A stretch of DNA of 64,000 nt from Glutamicibacter sp. JL.03c (lineage in GTDB: Bacteria; Actinomycetota; Actinomycetes; Actinomycetales; Micrococcaceae), in assembly GCF_025854375.1 (NCBI RefSeq), contig NZ_CP107575.1, positions 2,604,001-2,668,000 of the forward strand, in the 5' to 3' direction. The position numbers and the translations under genes are program-made. The notes under the pieces were generated by a model. The model was given only the letters and a program-made list of their open reading frames with translations, ran no database searches and was not told the origin of the DNA. Positions 522-45,235 of the stretch are shown in pieces; the first letter of the stretch is position 1, and every line of letters begins with the position of its first letter.

Positions 522-878
522 ATGATTCCCATGACAACAAGGAATTTCCAGTCACAGGTCAACAGACGTCCTGCGCTACCCAAGAAGCGGTCGTTCAACG
601 AGCTATCCCGTGGCACCCAAGCCGCTGTCGTCGTCTTTGGAATTCTGGAGCTGACCTTGATGATTGCAGCGTTAAGGGATCTTAGTAAGCGTCCAGGGGC
701 ATTGGTCCGAGGACCGAAACCGCTCTGGGCCGTGATCTCTTGCCTCAACATCCTCGGCTCGATTTCCTACTTCACCGTCGGCCGTCGCAAGCAGGTTTCC
801 CGTCGATTTCGAGCCAAAAAAACAACCCACCCTCGCCAATACGAGAGTGGGTTGTTCGCTATGAGCGTGGCCTGCTAG
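522..878 (+). CDS. Small membrane protein with a PLDc_N-type domain
   Basis: About 118 residues. The centre, from LSRGTQAAVVVF through ALRDLSKRP to KPLWAVISCLNILGSISYFTVGRR, carries the pattern of the PLDc_N membrane domain: two transmembrane helices, a conserved D-L-R/K-P stretch between them, then a K-LW and a G-YF-GRR signature. This domain is the N-terminal module of cardiolipin synthases but also occurs alone in actinobacteria. The start is uncertain; ATG at 522 or 531 avoids the HAIR box. The last 20 or so residues are encoded by the terminator of the convergent pullulanase gene, so they are probably not conserved. Specific function unknown. Confidence 0.7.
   Translation: MIPMTTRNFQSQVNRRPALPKKRSFNELSRGTQAAVVVFGILELTLMIAALRDLSKRPGALVRGPKPLWAVISCLNILGSISYFTVGRRKQVSRRFRAKKTTHPRQYESGLFAMSVAC
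821..856 (-). terminator. Rho-independent terminator of the pullulanase gene
   Basis: A 15-bp imperfect inverted repeat, arms 821-835 and 842-856, with a six-base loop. On the minus strand it is followed by a T-rich run (complement of aaaaaa at 815-822). It lies inside the C-terminal codons of the plus-strand PLDc_N gene. Confidence 0.8.
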
Positions 879-3800
879 TTCTCTGCCGCCACGAGAACGG
901 CTGCGGTCCGCGCTGGGATCGTCAGCGTGCCGGAAGCGCTGTCGAAGGACGTGGATTTCACCCGCTCATCACTGCCCTCTTCCAAAGCTTTAGCCAGGGC
1001 ATAGTCGTGCCCGGCCAGCTCCGCGACGGTTTGCGAGTGATCCTCCGGCGAAGCATTGAAGACCACCAGGGCTCCGTCATGCTCGCTGTCGGCGTCTGCA
1101 CACACCGTGTCATCAATGTGCATCACGATGATTCCCGGCTGGGCGCTTGGGCCGCTCAGCGGGAAGCTCACTTTCTGCTCGATCAGGTCAGCCGAGCCCA
1201 ACCTCAGCAGTCCGACTTCCCGGCGGGTGCGCAGCAGGTCAAGCGCTGCGCCTTCAGCCTGGGACATCGCCTGGGCATCTGGCTTCAGCTCGGGATCTTC
1301 CAGCAATGGAGCCATCAAATCCCATTTCTCCCCATTCTCGGCCTTCGGCGGTAGACCGGATCCGAAGGTATTCACCTGGCCGGAGAAATCGATCCGGTTA
1401 AACCAGTCCCCCGAGTTATAGCTGTTGCGATCCACGGATATTGACCGCAGCAATTCGGTCCCGGCATGCCAGAAGGGAACAGCCTGCGAGTACATGACCG
1501 TGGCCTGCGACAGCGTATTCATCCGCACCCGGTCGTCCATCGACGTATCGCGGGGCAGCTTGAATACGGTCAGGTCATAAAGCGTCTCGTTATCGTGCGC
1601 ATCAACATAGTTGATCACCTCGCCAGGCTGCGAAGCGTACCCTGCAGCAGCGCCGCGGTAGTCCATTTCATCGCCGCGTTGCACCGTGCCAGCCGACGTC
1701 AGGAACTGGTAATCAGCCAGGTTGCCCGCCAAGCCCAGGCGCACGAGATCGGTTTCGTGGCCCAGATCTTTCAGTGCTTCCTCGGTGCTCCCGTTGACGT
1801 CGTTGCCGTTGGGATCTGTCCCCAAACCGGTGCCGAATCCTTGCCGGAAGGTGGAGGATGATTCCACCGGGCTGCCACCGTGGACCGCATCACGCAGCCG
1901 ATCATTGAAGGTGCCGATTCCGGTGCCGTTCAATTGGCCTTGGGTCGCTTGGTAGAAGCGGGCATTGTCCGCGACTTCCCCGAAGTTCCACCCCTCGCCG
2001 TAGAGGTAAATGGACTTGCCATCGACCCCATCACGCCTTGGCGTCAGTTCATCCAAAGCTTCACGTGCCGCTTCCATGGTTTCGCGTGAGTGGTGCCCCA
2101 TGAGAACGAATCGGAAACCGTCAACCTTGTAGTCCTTGGCCCAGACCACTAGCGAATCAACCATCAGCTTCTGTGCCGCAACATGCTCGGTCGCCAGATT
2201 CTGGCAGCAGGTGGAAGTCTCGACCCTGCCCGTGGCATCCAGCCGGTGATAATAGCCGGGAACGATCTGATCCAGCACGCTTTGATCCGACTGCCCGGAG
2301 GCGGCAGTGTGGTTGAAGACCTGGTCCAGGACGACTTCCAGACCCATGCCGTGCAGTGAACCAACCATGCCGCGGAACTCTTCTACGCGCTGCGCACCTT
2401 CGGGGTTCGTGGCATAGGAGCCTTCCGGCGCCATGAAGTGGAATGGGTCGTAGCCCCAGTTGAATCCATCTTCGTCAGCATGGGCGTTCACGCATTCTTG
2501 CTGCTTGGATGAGGCGGCAGGCAGTGATTCCAGCTCGCAGCCGGTTTCGACCCGCTGGTTTTCATCCTCTTCTATGCTTGCAATATCAAAAGTCGGCAAC
2601 AGGTGGACTGTCGTCAATCCCGCTTCGGAGAGCTCCTTCAGCTGCTTGCTGCCGGCACCGTCTGCGCCAAAGGCCCCGTAGCGCCCGCGCTGGTCTTGTG
2701 GCACCGTGGAGTCAGAGATGGAGAAGTCGCGGATCTGCAGTTCGTAGATGCTGCGGTCCACATCTTTTTGGACATCCTTTGCCTGCGCCTTGCGCCACAG
2801 CTTAGGTTGGTGCTTGGGGTCTTCCAGGTTGACCGCCACCGATTGAGCAGAGTTGGTGGTCAGCGCTACGGAATAGGGGTCGGTGACGATATTTGTTTCA
2901 ATCTTGCCGGTTTCAGGCACAAACACCTGGACTTCCCAGCGGTATTTCGCCTCGGTGAATTGCGGCTTGCCTTTGGCGGTCCACACGCCATTGGCCTTGT
3001 CGTAATTGGCGGCATGCCGTGAAGTCTTCTGATTTTCATCAGAAACCAGAAGCGTTGCTTGACGCGCAGTGGGGGCCCAGAGCCTGAATGTCGGGGCCTT
3101 TCCGGTGAAGCTCACCCCGAGCTTGACCTTCTCAAGCCCTCGGCTGTAGAGCTCGTCAATCACGCCTGGGATTTGCACTCCGGTGAAGGCGGTTAGCTTC
3201 GTGGCTTCACCCTGGTCTTCGAAGCGCGCCAGCGCCAGCTGCGAGCGCAGGGCAGCCGTGGTTTCTTCGCGCGTCAGCTCAGCTCGCACCGTGTGGTAAT
3301 TGGCCAGATGGGGGAACTTCTTCTTTTGCTGTTCAGTGAGCCCGCCAATGTTCGGCTTGAGTTCTATCGGCCTGGCCCCGGAGATCTCTTCGCCATCCAA
3401 GCTCAGGCCAGCATCATCGGAGGCATAAAGCGCGTAGCGCTCTCCCCTGCCCAGGTCCCGGGGCAAGGCGATGGTATCGGCGGAGATCCATTGCGCTTGG
3501 CTTTGCCCGACTCCGGCGATGGAGTCGCTGGTGCCCGCAACCTGGACGATGCGCGTTGCCGAGTCGTAGGTGAATTCCACCTGGTCGCCGGAATTGACCG
3601 AGAGGTTGTAGTTAGCGCCTCCGGCTTTGCCATCTACGCCATAGTTTTCGTCCCACCCGCCGTCGTGGGCGACTTTGAACTCGTAGCTGCCAGTTGGTAG
3701 CTGGTCCGTGGTGAATTCACAGGTGCCGTCCCCATCGGCGTCGCCCATCATGGTGGACTCGCAGCTTGGGTCCCATTCGCCGGGACACCCCAACTCGTCC

Positions 3801-4003
3801 TGGAAGTTGCCAACGAGTGTGACCGCTATTTCCTCGGCAGATGCGGGGGTCGCTACCAGTGGAGCCATTGGCGCCAGGATCAACATGGGAGTAGCGGCCA
3901 GAGACGTCAGCCAACGACGCCAACTGCGCCCTGGGTAATCGGGAGGTGGATATTGTTTGCACGCAGAGGACGCAGCGTTGTAGCTGTTCAAGAAATGCTC
4001 CAT
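875..4003 (-). CDS. pulA: Secreted type I pullulanase (GH13), catalytic nucleophile replaced
   Basis: 1042 residues. Pullulanases cleave alpha-1,6 branches of pullulan and starch. A long N-region ends in a hydrophobic stretch and ATPASA-EE, a plausible signal peptidase site near residue 57. An X25-like starch-binding-type domain follows (about 60-155), then a CBM48 region beginning PTFRLWAPTA, then the GH13 barrel with the pullulanase signature NWGYDPFHF, and region I DQVFNHT. The acid/base YGEGW (Glu670) and region IV DAHDNE (Asp804) are intact. Region II reads DGFRFVLMGHH: Val633 (codon GTT at 2105-2107) stands where the family has the nucleophile Asp. As written the enzyme should be inactive, or this is a point mutation or sequencing error. 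Two LacI-type operators lie upstream. Confidence 0.92.
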   Translation of the reverse strand: MEHFLNSYNAASSACKQYPPPDYPGRSWRRWLTSLAATPMLILAPMAPLVATPASAEEIAVTLVGNFQDELGCPGEWDPSCESTMMGDADGDGTCEFTTDQLPTGSYEFKVAHDGGWDENYGVDGKAGGANYNLSVNSGDQVEFTYDSATRIVQVAGTSDSIAGVGQSQAQWISADTIALPRDLGRGERYALYASDDAGLSLDGEEISGARPIELKPNIGGLTEQQKKKFPHLANYHTVRAELTREETTAALRSQLALARFEDQGEATKLTAFTGVQIPGVIDELYSRGLEKVKLGVSFTGKAPTFRLWAPTARQATLLVSDENQKTSRHAANYDKANGVWTAKGKPQFTEAKYRWEVQVFVPETGKIETNIVTDPYSVALTTNSAQSVAVNLEDPKHQPKLWRKAQAKDVQKDVDRSIYELQIRDFSISDSTVPQDQRGRYGAFGADGAGSKQLKELSEAGLTTVHLLPTFDIASIEEDENQRVETGCELESLPAASSKQQECVNAHADEDGFNWGYDPFHFMAPEGSYATNPEGAQRVEEFRGMVGSLHGMGLEVVLDQVFNHTAASGQSDQSVLDQIVPGYYHRLDATGRVETSTCCQNLATEHVAAQKLMVDSLVVWAKDYKVDGFRFVLMGHHSRETMEAAREALDELTPRRDGVDGKSIYLYGEGWNFGEVADNARFYQATQGQLNGTGIGTFNDRLRDAVHGGSPVESSSTFRQGFGTGLGTDPNGNDVNGSTEEALKDLGHETDLVRLGLAGNLADYQFLTSAGTVQRGDEMDYRGAAAGYASQPGEVINYVDAHDNETLYDLTVFKLPRDTSMDDRVRMNTLSQATVMYSQAVPFWHAGTELLRSISVDRNSYNSGDWFNRIDFSGQVNTFGSGLPPKAENGEKWDLMAPLLEDPELKPDAQAMSQAEGAALDLLRTRREVGLLRLGSADLIEQKVSFPLSGPSAQPGIIVMHIDDTVCADADSEHDGALVVFNASPEDHSQTVAELAGHDYALAKALEEGSDERVKSTSFDSASGTLTIPARTAAVLVAAEN

Positions 4004-4085: not shown

Positions 4086-4099
4086 TGCAAGCGTTTCCA
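4086..4099 (-). promoter_or_regulatory. LacI/GalR-family operator upstream of pulA (proximal)
   Basis: TGCAAGCGTTTCCA matches the degenerate LacI-family palindrome TGNAANCGNTTNCA at all fixed positions. It lies about 83 bases upstream of the pulA start. A maltodextrin-responsive LacI regulator is a reasonable guess; none is encoded in this window. Confidence 0.65.
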
Positions 4100-4161
4100 A
4101 CATTTACATTTTCTTGAGGACAACTTTCCAATATTTACAGAAATACTGGGTATTTAAGATT

Positions 4162-4175
4162 AGTAAGCGTTTGCA
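4162..4175 (-). promoter_or_regulatory. LacI/GalR-family operator upstream of pulA (distal)
   Basis: AGTAAGCGTTTGCA matches TGNAANCGNTTNCA at all but the first position. Its centre is 76 bases from the proximal operator. Two similar sites at this distance fit repression with looping across the pulA promoter. Confidence 0.6.
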
Positions 4176-6667: not shown

Positions 6668-8797
6668 TCAATCGCGCTTCTCATGCGCCAATTTGGAGGG
6701 CCACCAGACCTTTGACCCAATTTCCTCGACCAGAGCGGGCACCAGCAGGCTGCGGACGATAAATGTATCCAGAAGCACACCGAAGGCCACGATGAAGCCC
6801 AATTGCCCCAGGAACATGATGGGAACCACCCCGAGGGCAGCGAAGGTCGCCGCGAGAACAACACCAGCAGAGGTGATCACGCCGCCAGTGACTTGCAGCC
6901 CGCGGCGCATGCCTTCGCGGGTTCCAACTTTCAATGATTCCTCGCGCACCCTGGTCATGAGGAAAATGTTGTAGTCCACACCGAGCGCTACCAGGAACAC
7001 GAAACCGAATAGTGGCACGGAAGGATCAGCGCCAACATAGTTGAATACATTGTTGAAGACCAATGCACTGACGCCCATCGCCGTTCCATAGGACAACACC
7101 GTGCTCAGCATCAACAGCAACGGTGCGAGCACGGAGCGCAGCAGCAGCATCAGGATCACAAAGATCGCAGCCAAGGTCGTGGGGATGATCTTATACAGGT
7201 CGGCCTGAGCCGTTGAGTTGGTATCAAGCTGCGTGGCGGTGGTGCCGCCAACCAGCGCCTCCGGGTTGACCTGGTGCACCGCTTCGCGCAATTGGATGAT
7301 GCTGTCCTTGGCTTCGTCTGAATCTGCAGCGTCGGAGAGGGTGACGGAAATGAGATTCCGTCCCTGCACTCCATAGGGCTGCACACCGCGTTCAATGATT
7401 GCAGGGCCACCGTCCTCAGCTTGCAGGTAGGCTGAGTCGACCCCCTCGACGTTGAGAACTTTTTCCAAGGCGAGCTGGGCATCTGCTTCATCCACGATGA
7501 CCGTTGCCGGAGAACCAGTGCCACCCGGGAAGTGCTCCCCCAGGGCTAGTTGCCCGTCACGTGCTTCGGATCCGCCCACCACCAACTCGCTTTGCGGTAC
7601 GCCGTGGGCCTTGAGCTGAGTCACGCCGAGTGCTCCGGCGGATAGCAGCACAATGGTGATGATCCAGATCGGCCTTGGGTGGAGGGCGACGAACTTGGCG
7701 ATCCTGCCCCATAGTCCGAGTGCGCTCTGTGCCTGCTGCTGGGCCTGTGCCTTGGGGACGAACGGCCAGTAGGCCGCCTTGCCCAGCAGTCCCAATGCCG
7801 CCGGCAGGAAGCTCAAGGCGGCGATAATCGAGAAGATAATGCCCGATGCACCGATTGGCCCCAGCGCCTTGTTTGAATTCAGGTCCGAGAAAAGCAGGCA
7901 AAGCAGGCCCACCGTGACGGTGCCACCTGATGCGACGATGGGCTCAAGCGAACTCTTGAAGGCCGCGGAAACCGCCTGCCATTTGTCCGCACCAGCTATC
8001 AATGCCTCCTTATGCCGGGCCACAAAGAGCAATGAGTAGTCCGTTGCCGCGCCAATGACGAGAATGGACAGGATGCCTTGCGCCTGGCCGTCCAGGCGTA
8101 TCCACCCTTCGGAAGCCATGAAATACACACAGAGGATCGCCCCGCACAGGGCCACCATTGAGGTCATCAGCACCGTGATAGGAAGGATCAGCGAGCGGTA
8201 AACCGCAAGCAGGATCACCAGCACCGCAACCAGGGCCACCCCGAGCAACACCCCATCAATTCCGCCAAATGCTTCGCTCAGGTCGGCACTGAATCCAGCG
8301 GGTCCCGTGACATATGCCGTGCTGTTCGCGGGTTTCTGCGCATCAAGCAATGATCGCAGTTCCTCGACGCCTTCCTTGGCTTCAACCTCCCCCGAAATCG
8401 GCACCAGCAGCTCAGCGGCCTGGCGGTCCTCGGAAAGGAAGGGGCCAATCACCTTGCCATCGAGGTAGCTGAAATCAGCCACAGCTTCGGCAAGGTCCTT
8501 GACGGCTGCGCCGTCGAGTTCCGCCGCTCCGGTCAGCACGACAACTGCAGGTATGGCTTCGGAGGTCTGGAACTTGTTCTGCCACTCAAGTGCCTTGGTG
8601 GCTTCGGCCGTGGCGGGAAGAAAGGACGTCTGGTCATTGGTCTGGACATCGGAAAGCTTGCCGAACGTCGGCCCGCCGACACCGGCAACACCGAGCCACA
8701 GCAGAAGCAATACAGCATAGATGGACGCCCTGAGCCAGACGCTCTTTCGCCCATTGGCAGCAGCCATTTCGCTCTTGAGGTGTTTCTGTCGTGGCAC
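6668..8797 (-). CDS. MMPL-family (RND superfamily) membrane transporter
   Basis: 709 residues with the MMPL layout: one N-terminal helix, a periplasm-like extracytoplasmic loop (about 40-180), five helices, a second large loop (about 400-520) and five more helices. The segments ATDYSLLFVARHKE and GVDYNIFLMTRVREE carry the charged residues of the proton relay seen in MmpL proteins. Such pumps export lipids, siderophores or drugs using the proton gradient. It is divergent from a MarR regulator, with a palindrome between them, so it is probably the regulated efflux target. Start taken as GTG at 8797 (GAGGA nine bases upstream); ATG at 8767 is an alternative. Confidence 0.9.
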   Translation of the reverse strand: MPRQKHLKSEMAAANGRKSVWLRASIYAVLLLLWLGVAGVGGPTFGKLSDVQTNDQTSFLPATAEATKALEWQNKFQTSEAIPAVVVLTGAAELDGAAVKDLAEAVADFSYLDGKVIGPFLSEDRQAAELLVPISGEVEAKEGVEELRSLLDAQKPANSTAYVTGPAGFSADLSEAFGGIDGVLLGVALVAVLVILLAVYRSLILPITVLMTSMVALCGAILCVYFMASEGWIRLDGQAQGILSILVIGAATDYSLLFVARHKEALIAGADKWQAVSAAFKSSLEPIVASGGTVTVGLLCLLFSDLNSNKALGPIGASGIIFSIIAALSFLPAALGLLGKAAYWPFVPKAQAQQQAQSALGLWGRIAKFVALHPRPIWIITIVLLSAGALGVTQLKAHGVPQSELVVGGSEARDGQLALGEHFPGGTGSPATVIVDEADAQLALEKVLNVEGVDSAYLQAEDGGPAIIERGVQPYGVQGRNLISVTLSDAADSDEAKDSIIQLREAVHQVNPEALVGGTTATQLDTNSTAQADLYKIIPTTLAAIFVILMLLLRSVLAPLLLMLSTVLSYGTAMGVSALVFNNVFNYVGADPSVPLFGFVFLVALGVDYNIFLMTRVREESLKVGTREGMRRGLQVTGGVITSAGVVLAATFAALGVVPIMFLGQLGFIVAFGVLLDTFIVRSLLVPALVEEIGSKVWWPSKLAHEKRD

Positions 8798-43536: not shown

Positions 43537-43943
43537 ATCCTTCTTATCATCTCATTTTTGCCCCGCCCCGTCAGGCCGGATGGGTCCGGCGGCACCCCGC
43601 TACGGCGCATCTCACACAGCGGCGGGCACAGGCTTCGGGCTCGTCGATCACCTGGCGGGGGTGCTGATCCCGTCCAGCTGACCGGACAGATTCCTGAAGG
43701 ACCCATCACCGGGTGTGGCACGCACGAAGCCGGTCTGCACGAAGCGGCGCCGGGTCCTGCGAACAGCACTGGATCAGCAGACCCATCTGCCCGAGCACGT
43801 TGAGCAGGCTCAGGCCCAGGTGTCGAGGGCGGTCAGCGCCGGGGCTCGCGTCCCCTTCACTGCGGGCAGCACTGGCGTTTGCTCGTCCCAAGCTTTCGTG
43901 AAGTGGCCGAGGTGGCCCCTGGGCACCGGAATGACAGCGGGTG
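43537..43943. other. Intergenic region without a recognised gene, between copD-ctaG and copC
   Basis: About 400 GC-rich bases. Short frames on both strands (for example near 43558 and 43706) contain no recognisable motif or ribosome site. It must contain the promoter of the copD-ctaG gene. Possibly a decayed gene. Confidence 0.5.
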
Positions 43944-44552
43944 CTACTTGGTGTTGCGCATGAACTTGGCCATCACGCCAATCACACCGCCGAGAATGAC
44001 GACGCCGATCACGACCCACATGATCGGGCTCATGGAGCGGCCGGCATCCTGCATCGGGGTCTCGCTCGACGAGGCAGACTCGCTCGGCGCAGCCGAATCA
44101 GTTGGCGCAGCCGAGTCGCTTGGAGCACTGATCATCGATGGGGTCGGCTTGGCATCGTTCTTGATGGTGAAGCCCAGGTTGTTCTCAACCGGGTGCCCGT
44201 CCGAGGAGACCACCCGGAAGGCCAGATCGTATTCGCCATTGCCCAGTTCCTCGGCGGGGGTGACGGTCACGGTCGTGCCCTTGGTCTCCGCCTTGGCGTC
44301 GACCACGGTGCCGTCCTGCTTGAGCACGACCTTCGTGGAATCCACGCCGGAGATGGTCTGCAGCTCGCCGGAGAAGGTCAGGACCAGCTCCTTGGGCGCG
44401 GTCTTCAGGCTCGCTCCGTCCTTGGGCGTGGAGCTGACCAATTCATCATGGGCGCTGGCGGCGGTGATCGAGGTGAACAGGGCCAGGACTGACAGCGTGA
44501 TCACGGCGGCCAGGCGGGTGAGGTTCATTGCGGGCAGGGTCAGGTTCTTCAT
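43944..44552 (-). CDS. copC: CopC-family copper-binding protein
   Basis: 202 residues. A signal peptide ends at AASA-HDELVS, leaving His as the new N-terminus, the site typical of CopC copper binding. Residues 38-130 form the beta-barrel CopC domain (SSTPKDGASLKTAPKELVLTFSG; FRVVSSDGHPVENNLGF). A Ser/Ala/Pro-rich linker (about 135-170) and a C-terminal helix with KFMRNTK anchor it in the membrane. It collects copper outside the cell for the CopD-CtaG protein. The start is placed by GGAAGG six bases upstream. Confidence 0.93.
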   Translation of the reverse strand: MKNLTLPAMNLTRLAAVITLSVLALFTSITAASAHDELVSSTPKDGASLKTAPKELVLTFSGELQTISGVDSTKVVLKQDGTVVDAKAETKGTTVTVTPAEELGNGEYDLAFRVVSSDGHPVENNLGFTIKNDAKPTPSMISAPSDSAAPTDSAAPSESASSSETPMQDAGRSMSPIMWVVIGVVILGGVIGVMAKFMRNTK

Positions 44553-44596
44553 GGTTGTCCTTCCAATCCCCGTTCATGGGGCATTTCGTTATTGTC

Positions 44597-45235
44597 TTAG
44601 GCGGCAAGAACGAAGGAAGGCGGGCCCCGGCGCTCTGGCAGTCTTTCCAATTGCGCCAGCTTGAGTTGAAAACGCAACGGGCAGTAGGCCGGGAGGACCG
44701 GGACGTCGGGAACCTGAATACGGATCAACGCGAGGATGCGCCGGGCCGAGGACAGGGTGAGGTATGAACCCAAGAGGTTCAGCAGTCGTTCACCCTGGTT
44801 CAAGACGAGGATGCTGGCCACGGCGGCCAGCACGTGCGCGTAGAGCATCGACTCGGTGTGCACGTCGGCGTAGTGGGTGCTGATGTTGTGGGCGAGCTCG
44901 ATGCTGCGCCCGGTGTGCTGCACGTGCTCCATGCCCGAGATGCCGGTACCATCGTGGCTCATCACCGACAAGCTCAGGTGGAACAGGCCTTGGCTGGCCA
45001 TCACCACCAGGCTGGTGGCCCACACGGAGAACCTCTTCCCCACCAGCAGCAGGGCGATCATCGCGGAAATGCAGGTGATCAGGCCCATGGCGACCAGCGA
45101 CATTTTTGTCGGCGCGCTATGCGCGTGCGCCGCGAAAGCCGTCCAGGTGCACACGCTCGCCGCCAACCAGCCGCGCAGGACGCGGGTTGCGGGATTCTGT
45201 GGCACGAGGTTCAGCCTACTCTTCTGGTTGGTCAT
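44597..45235 (-). CDS. Hypothetical His-rich membrane protein next to copC
   Basis: 212 residues. Four or five helices (about 18-38, 46-68, 70-92, 128-150). The second loop contains HDGTGISGMEHVQHTG and ELAHNISTHYADVHTESMLYAH, a cluster of histidines and methionines suited to binding copper. The C-terminal third is hydrophilic with basic and aromatic residues. I do not recognise a named family; position beside copC suggests a copper-related membrane protein. A TTG at 45238 is an alternative start. Confidence 0.7.
   Translation of the reverse strand: MTNQKSRLNLVPQNPATRVLRGWLAASVCTWTAFAAHAHSAPTKMSLVAMGLITCISAMIALLLVGKRFSVWATSLVVMASQGLFHLSLSVMSHDGTGISGMEHVQHTGRSIELAHNISTHYADVHTESMLYAHVLAAVASILVLNQGERLLNLLGSYLTLSSARRILALIRIQVPDVPVLPAYCPLRFQLKLAQLERLPERRGPPSFVLAA

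Follow-up and report, generated by a model that had tools for sequence, protein, structure and literature searches.

A Glutamicibacter pullulanase with valine at the position of the catalytic nucleophile, most likely a recent loss-of-function allele

Enzymes of family GH13 act through a catalytic triad in which an aspartate is the nucleophile (PMC11046441). In the 64,000-nucleotide stretch of Glutamicibacter sp. JL.03c analysed here (the window), a gene for a pullulanase-type alpha-1,6-glucosidase encodes valine at this position. A first-pass annotation of the window offered three explanations: an inactive paralogue used for starch binding, a recent loss of function, or a sequencing error. We asked which of these best accounts for the gene, its relatives and its genomic surroundings.

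The gene lies at 875–4003 on the minus strand, to which all coordinates of the gene and its upstream region given below refer. Its frame of 1042 codons (1042 amino acids) is intact and without an internal stop, as the first-pass annotation had stated. Against TIGR02103 the protein reaches 1022.7 bits (curated cut-off, 697.6), a family score that names it a pullulanase and says nothing about activity. Pfam places an X25 domain at residues 61–151 (3551–3823), a pullulanase N2 domain (PF17967) at residues 167–284 (3152–3505), a CBM48 (PF02922) at residues 294–378 (2870–3124) and the pullulanase C-terminal domain (PF11852, Pullul_strch_C) at residues 876–1039 (887–1378), the three numbered models all above their cut-offs. 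The GH13 catalytic domain, with bounds set by hand from Pfam, TIGR02103 and an alignment with the barley enzyme, would span residues about 401–875 (1379–2803). The general Pfam Alpha-amylase model stayed below threshold for the window protein and was weakly above it for the short proteins of two other Glutamicibacter genomes, G016 and G011 (28.6 and 27.7 bits). The closest solved structures are barley limit dextrinases (PDB 4j3s and 2y4s), with which the window protein aligns over residues 163–1038. Judged by eye, the N-terminus carries a putative export signal. The best explanation of these features would be an ordinary secreted GH13 pullulanase of the genus, of the limit-dextrinase type.

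Conserved region II of GH13 reads FRFVLMGHH in the window protein (residues 630–638, 2090–2116), aligned with FRFDLMGH of barley limit dextrinase. Codon 633 (2105–2107) is GTT, and its valine falls on Asp473 of the barley enzyme, in which Asp473 is the nucleophile, Glu510 the acid/base and Asp642 the transition-state stabiliser (PMC7241666). This bears out the earlier reading of a D-to-V change in FRFDLMGHH at the GH13 nucleophile; the interval given for it, 2094–2121, was a few bases off the motif and did contain codon 633. The equivalents of Glu510 and Asp642, Glu670 (1994–1996) and Asp804 (1592–1594), are kept, as had also been claimed. Of the triad, the beta-4 Asp is absent, and the beta-5 Glu and beta-7 Asp are present. 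The locus alignment also shows His803 and the region I motif retained.

Valine at this position was seen nowhere else. The locus set comprised 90 loci, two of which (L002 and L090) had no row covering site 633. Of the 88 loci covered by a tblastn match, 87 carry Asp and the window alone Val; seven of the 87 are repeats, leaving 80 non-redundant relatives. A codon-free motif search, which detects only proteins with unchanged flanking residues, returned 125 sites, spread over 119 of the 396 genomes searched in the order, two of the 396 being from Glutamicibacter. The codon was GAC or GAT at 124 of these sites, in a list read by eye, and GTT in the window. No other lineage in either set shares the valine, the species being represented by one strain. 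Nor was a relocated nucleophile or an alternative Asp in that role found in the window protein, since there is no additional acidic residue near position 633, and the sole new acidic residue among 16 genus-unique changes, D889E, replaces another acidic one. In the parts of the literature covered, no natural nucleophile-null pullulanase was recognised, which does not prove that none exists.

A second departure, missed in the first-pass annotation, lies at codon 855, which is ATA (Ile, 1439–1441) in the motif RSIS; 80 of 80 relatives have Lys here. Relative to barley limit dextrinase, with its acid/base and stabiliser kept, the window protein thus differs in having Val for Asp473 and Ile for the Lys of RSKS. 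With a barley-to-cassava offset of +10, worked out from printed residues, Lys855 maps five and seven residues before D708 and Y710 of cassava pullulanase. These two residues are named as interacting with a branched oligosaccharide, and the Lys itself is unlisted, in the available part of that report (PMC9911869). To place the two changes in context, invariant columns were counted over residues 165–1039 in the 80 relatives that remained after dropping the seven repeats and L001, L002 and L090, using columns with coverage in 80% of rows or more. The window departs from 113 invariant columns at two, D633V and K855I. The same counting, with each row set against all the others, gave one departure for G016, none for the other rows of the genus and up to five for distant relatives. 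Since the latter reach five, two departures are unexceptional in number, although the kind of residue is exceptional.

The genome is a single contig of 3,586,856 bases (completeness 100, contamination 0.11). It holds one pullulanase; the single further match, at 36% identity, is a protein read as GlgX-like. The gene lies between a DEAD-box helicase gene and one that we take, from its N-terminus, to be dnaK. The same locus is found in all five Glutamicibacter relatives read (G016, G011, G004, G006 and G007). Because it is the sole copy and sits at this common locus, the window gene is a syntenic orthologue with no spare copy, which rules out the paralogue reading. The suggestion of an inactive starch-binding paralogue also finds no support in the catalytic-domain substitution rate, which is not raised (see below).

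Scored at E values up to 1e-30, the gene is present in 13 of 18 Glutamicibacter genomes and absent from five. Nine genomes of the genus have a long open frame of 1930–1951 codons. In the sole long form that was domain-scanned, that of G004, X25, alpha-amylase, X25 and X25 domains precede the pullulanase half. This half is 80–81% identical in eight of the nine long amylopullulanases and 72% in that of G007, and the three long-form genomes read (G004, G006 and G007) share the common locus. By its sequence the window protein is a short form, without the alpha-amylase half. In the window, G016 and G011, the N-terminal region is joined directly to an X25 that corresponds to the third and last one of the long form, and about 890 residues of the G004 arrangement are missing. 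These short forms, from three species (loci window 875–4003, L096 and L097, compared with L098, L100 and L101), make up one clade in the tree (support 100/99), so the loss of about 890 residues, including the amylase, probably occurred once.

One further genome, G014, which we judged to be Arthrobacter arilaitensis Re117, has a disrupted amylopullulanase gene at the equivalent place. Here an internal stop breaks the gene, and the region (L118, 3048–8876, minus strand) now consists of three separate frames, of 647, 1166 and 143 amino acids, in contrast to the active-site missense change of the window. This cheese isolate is described as having 123 pseudogenes and extensive loss of catabolic genes; amylase and pullulanase are unmentioned in the passages available (PMC2991359).

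The age of the change was approached through substitution rates. Branch dN was set against the Asp-bearing sister G016, because synonymous distances are high and partly not computable (dS between the window and G016 is 1.2). In three triples, the branch dN of the catalytic domain was 0.028–0.030 for the window and 0.034–0.035 for G016. The whole pullulanase part gave 0.050–0.055 and 0.047–0.051, respectively. Values for the window were lower in the C-terminal part (0.037–0.044 vs 0.052–0.059) and higher in X25 (0.092–0.141 vs 0.041–0.089) and N2 plus CBM48 (0.077–0.086 vs 0.066–0.075). Genus-unique changes over the whole protein numbered 16 in the window, 13 in G016, 14 in G011, 13 in G006 and 23 in G007; the raw counts within the GH13 domain were 9, 5, 6, 5 and 3 in the same order. 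For the catalytic domain the two measures thus point in opposite directions, with a branch dN that is not raised and a count that is. The GH13 count of 9 against 3–6, together with the higher dN in X25 and N2 plus CBM48, hints at some relaxation. Since the catalytic-domain dN is not above that of the Asp-bearing sister, despite slightly more genus-unique changes, the inactivation looks recent, or else is a consensus error.

A rough timing can be derived from the invariant columns. Assuming a branch dS of 0.2–0.7 and 2.25 non-synonymous sites per codon, unconstrained decay over the whole branch would produce about 50–180 changes at the 113 columns, as opposed to the two seen. The share of the branch elapsed since the loss is then estimated at 1–4% (limits 0.1–14%), a rough figure, given nearly saturated synonymous sites and the possibility that D633V and K855I were what caused the loss. 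With two changes seen where 50–180 are expected, a long-standing starch-binding pseudoenzyme is not supported.

We therefore favour a loss-of-function allele that arose recently in the gene of an ordinary enzyme, within an intact starch regulon, and give this reading a probability of about 0.62. The change is most likely a recent loss of activity and not a new kind of protein. Among the explanations first offered, recent loss of function is the best supported, by D633V and K855I, the short-form clade, the dN values and the retention of operator-like sites, and the five of 18 genomes without the gene and the one with a broken gene provide supporting context. Reasoning from sequence, we infer that the recorded base is real, that activity is lost and that the loss is recent. 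A recent missense change would have removed the nucleophile, probably accompanied by the change of Lys855. Synthesis and export of the protein would continue, and X25, CBM48 and the groove would still let it bind alpha-glucan. The Val633 protein would not, however, cleave alpha-1,6 bonds, as the covalent glycosyl-enzyme could not form. In the related debranching enzyme ISA1, replacement of the nucleophile-equivalent Asp by Ala abolished activity on native gels, according to the part of the report available (PMC3787081). Because the Asp is the GH13 nucleophile and its Ala replacement in ISA1 is inactive, the Val633 protein is expected, by analogy, to be secreted and to bind without debranching.

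The upstream region suggests that the gene is still wired into starch metabolism. A pattern search found a putative LacI-type operator-like site, GGAAACGCTTGCA, at 4086–4098 and a second, GCAAACGCTTACT, 76 bp further upstream at 4162–4174; a site similar to the first is present in five of five relatives, and a second site in four of five. With one mismatch allowed, the sites GGAAACGCTTGC and GCAAACGCTTAC, upstream of the pullulanase gene and 76 bp apart, were the only two matches in the 64-kb window, against 0.35 expected, and five of 100 shuffles reached two. A looser pattern recovered paired similar sites at 75–76 bp in four relatives and a single site in G007. Genome-wide, the pattern GNAAACGCTTRC had five matches, compared with two for a backwards control: two at the pullulanase gene (window 4086–4174) and the others at G000:C1:1344318-1344451 and 2521653-2521664. 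Two matches fall between a GH13 glucosidase gene and a binding-protein/permease operon, if a downstream ATG is taken as the binding protein's start codon, and lie beside a LacI-family regulator. The fifth precedes the longest frame of a CBM20 alpha-amylase gene by 22 bp, and it alone is independent, since the other four had been seen before the pattern was chosen.

The pullulanase, the glucosidase/transport operon and the CBM20 amylase likely form a compact LacI-type starch or maltodextrin regulon, in which operator binding and the sugar transported are presumed from the sequences, and to which the pullulanase appears still to belong. The amylase (L092) is a frame of 618 amino acids with alpha-amylase and CBM20 domains and, by eye, a signal-like N-terminus, which led us to reject the idea that no other secreted amylase is left. 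GH15 and GH31 had no match in the genome. The strain would rely on this secreted amylase and on sugar uptake. Linear parts of starch would be usable, because the amylase and the binding-protein/permease operon are kept, and branched limit dextrins would be left unused.

The most serious rival, though an unlikely one, is an error of consensus or assembly, with Asp633 in the organism itself and a wrong base in the record. GTT is one base from an Asp codon, Val occurs in a single genome, the branch dN of the domain resembles that of an Asp-bearing enzyme, and both changes at invariant sites are A-to-T on the gene strand. Against this, a second invariant position is changed in the same gene, so that D633V and K855I would require two errors, and the assembly is a single contig with the completeness and contamination given above. 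Among genus-unique nucleotide changes, A-to-T is also unremarkable, accounting for 5 of 81 in the window gene, 4 of 87 in G016, 4 of 93 in G011 and 1 of 77 in G006, and there is no marked A-to-T excess over the sister genes that would signal an error spectrum. Nor did a comparison with four relatives, its list read by eye, reveal a clear frameshift in 64 kb, leaving one unclear frame difference near 44,600. Of 258 relatives' frames with sufficient coverage, 241 aligned in a single frame and 17 in more than one; apart from that near 44,600, we read the 17 as paralogues, tandem copies or antisense frames. The sequencing error proposed in the first-pass annotation thus retains some plausibility, lessened by K855I and the lack of a clear frameshift.

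The unclear frame difference lies within 43879–44770, where frames of G016 and G006 continue in another frame near 44,600. As the coding strand is ambiguous there, either a frameshift or a frame on the antisense strand could account for it.

Somewhat less probable than an error is a pseudoenzyme under selection, one that has lost hydrolysis and is retained as a secreted starch binder aiding the alpha-amylase or sugar uptake. The intact frame, the presence of X25 and CBM48, the retained operator-like sites and the slightly raised count of genus-unique changes in an open GH13 frame (9 vs 3–6) speak for it. It sits poorly, however, with the retention of Glu670, Asp804, His803 and the region I motif, with the unraised catalytic-domain dN, with two changes at 113 invariant columns where roughly 50–180 would be expected without constraint, and with the lack of Val at all 87 other loci. 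A more specific version, which we regard as a little more doubtful still, is a GH13 debranching pseudoenzyme just born after the loss of the amylase half; secreted and operator-controlled, it would capture branched dextrins in its intact groove, to the benefit of the sugar transporter and the co-regulated CBM20 amylase. Altered chemistry, whereby the Val enzyme retains some transfer or hydrolysis through a different mechanism, is very improbable: Glu670 and Asp804 are kept, but no acidic residue is gained near 633, D889E is the only new one among the genus-unique changes, and the Ala variant at the same Asp of a related debranching enzyme is inactive (PMC3787081).

Plant isoamylase 2 (ISA2) offers a parallel, as a debranching-type protein with replaced catalytic residues, proposed in the available text to be a hydrolytically inactive subunit (PMC3787081). 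ISA2 carries several replacements common to plant species and has an active partner; the window protein is altered at two residues, in a single genome, and has no other pullulanase beside it.

Should the base be real, the recent loss-of-function allele favoured here would amount to a natural knockout, by one residue, of a debranching enzyme that is secreted, in an otherwise intact starch regulon. It would offer a clean case for timing enzyme death in genomes and for telling glucan binding apart from hydrolysis. Should the base be an error, its relevance is that of a correction. The interest is modest unless further strains retain the Val form.

A minor observation concerns an MMPL gene at 6668–8797 of the window. 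Its branch dN was 0.005 for G016 and 0.092 for the window with G011 as third sequence, and 0.050 and 0.047 with G004 as third. This inconsistency, unlike the behaviour of the neighbouring pullulanase gene, points to possible recombination between G016 and G011.
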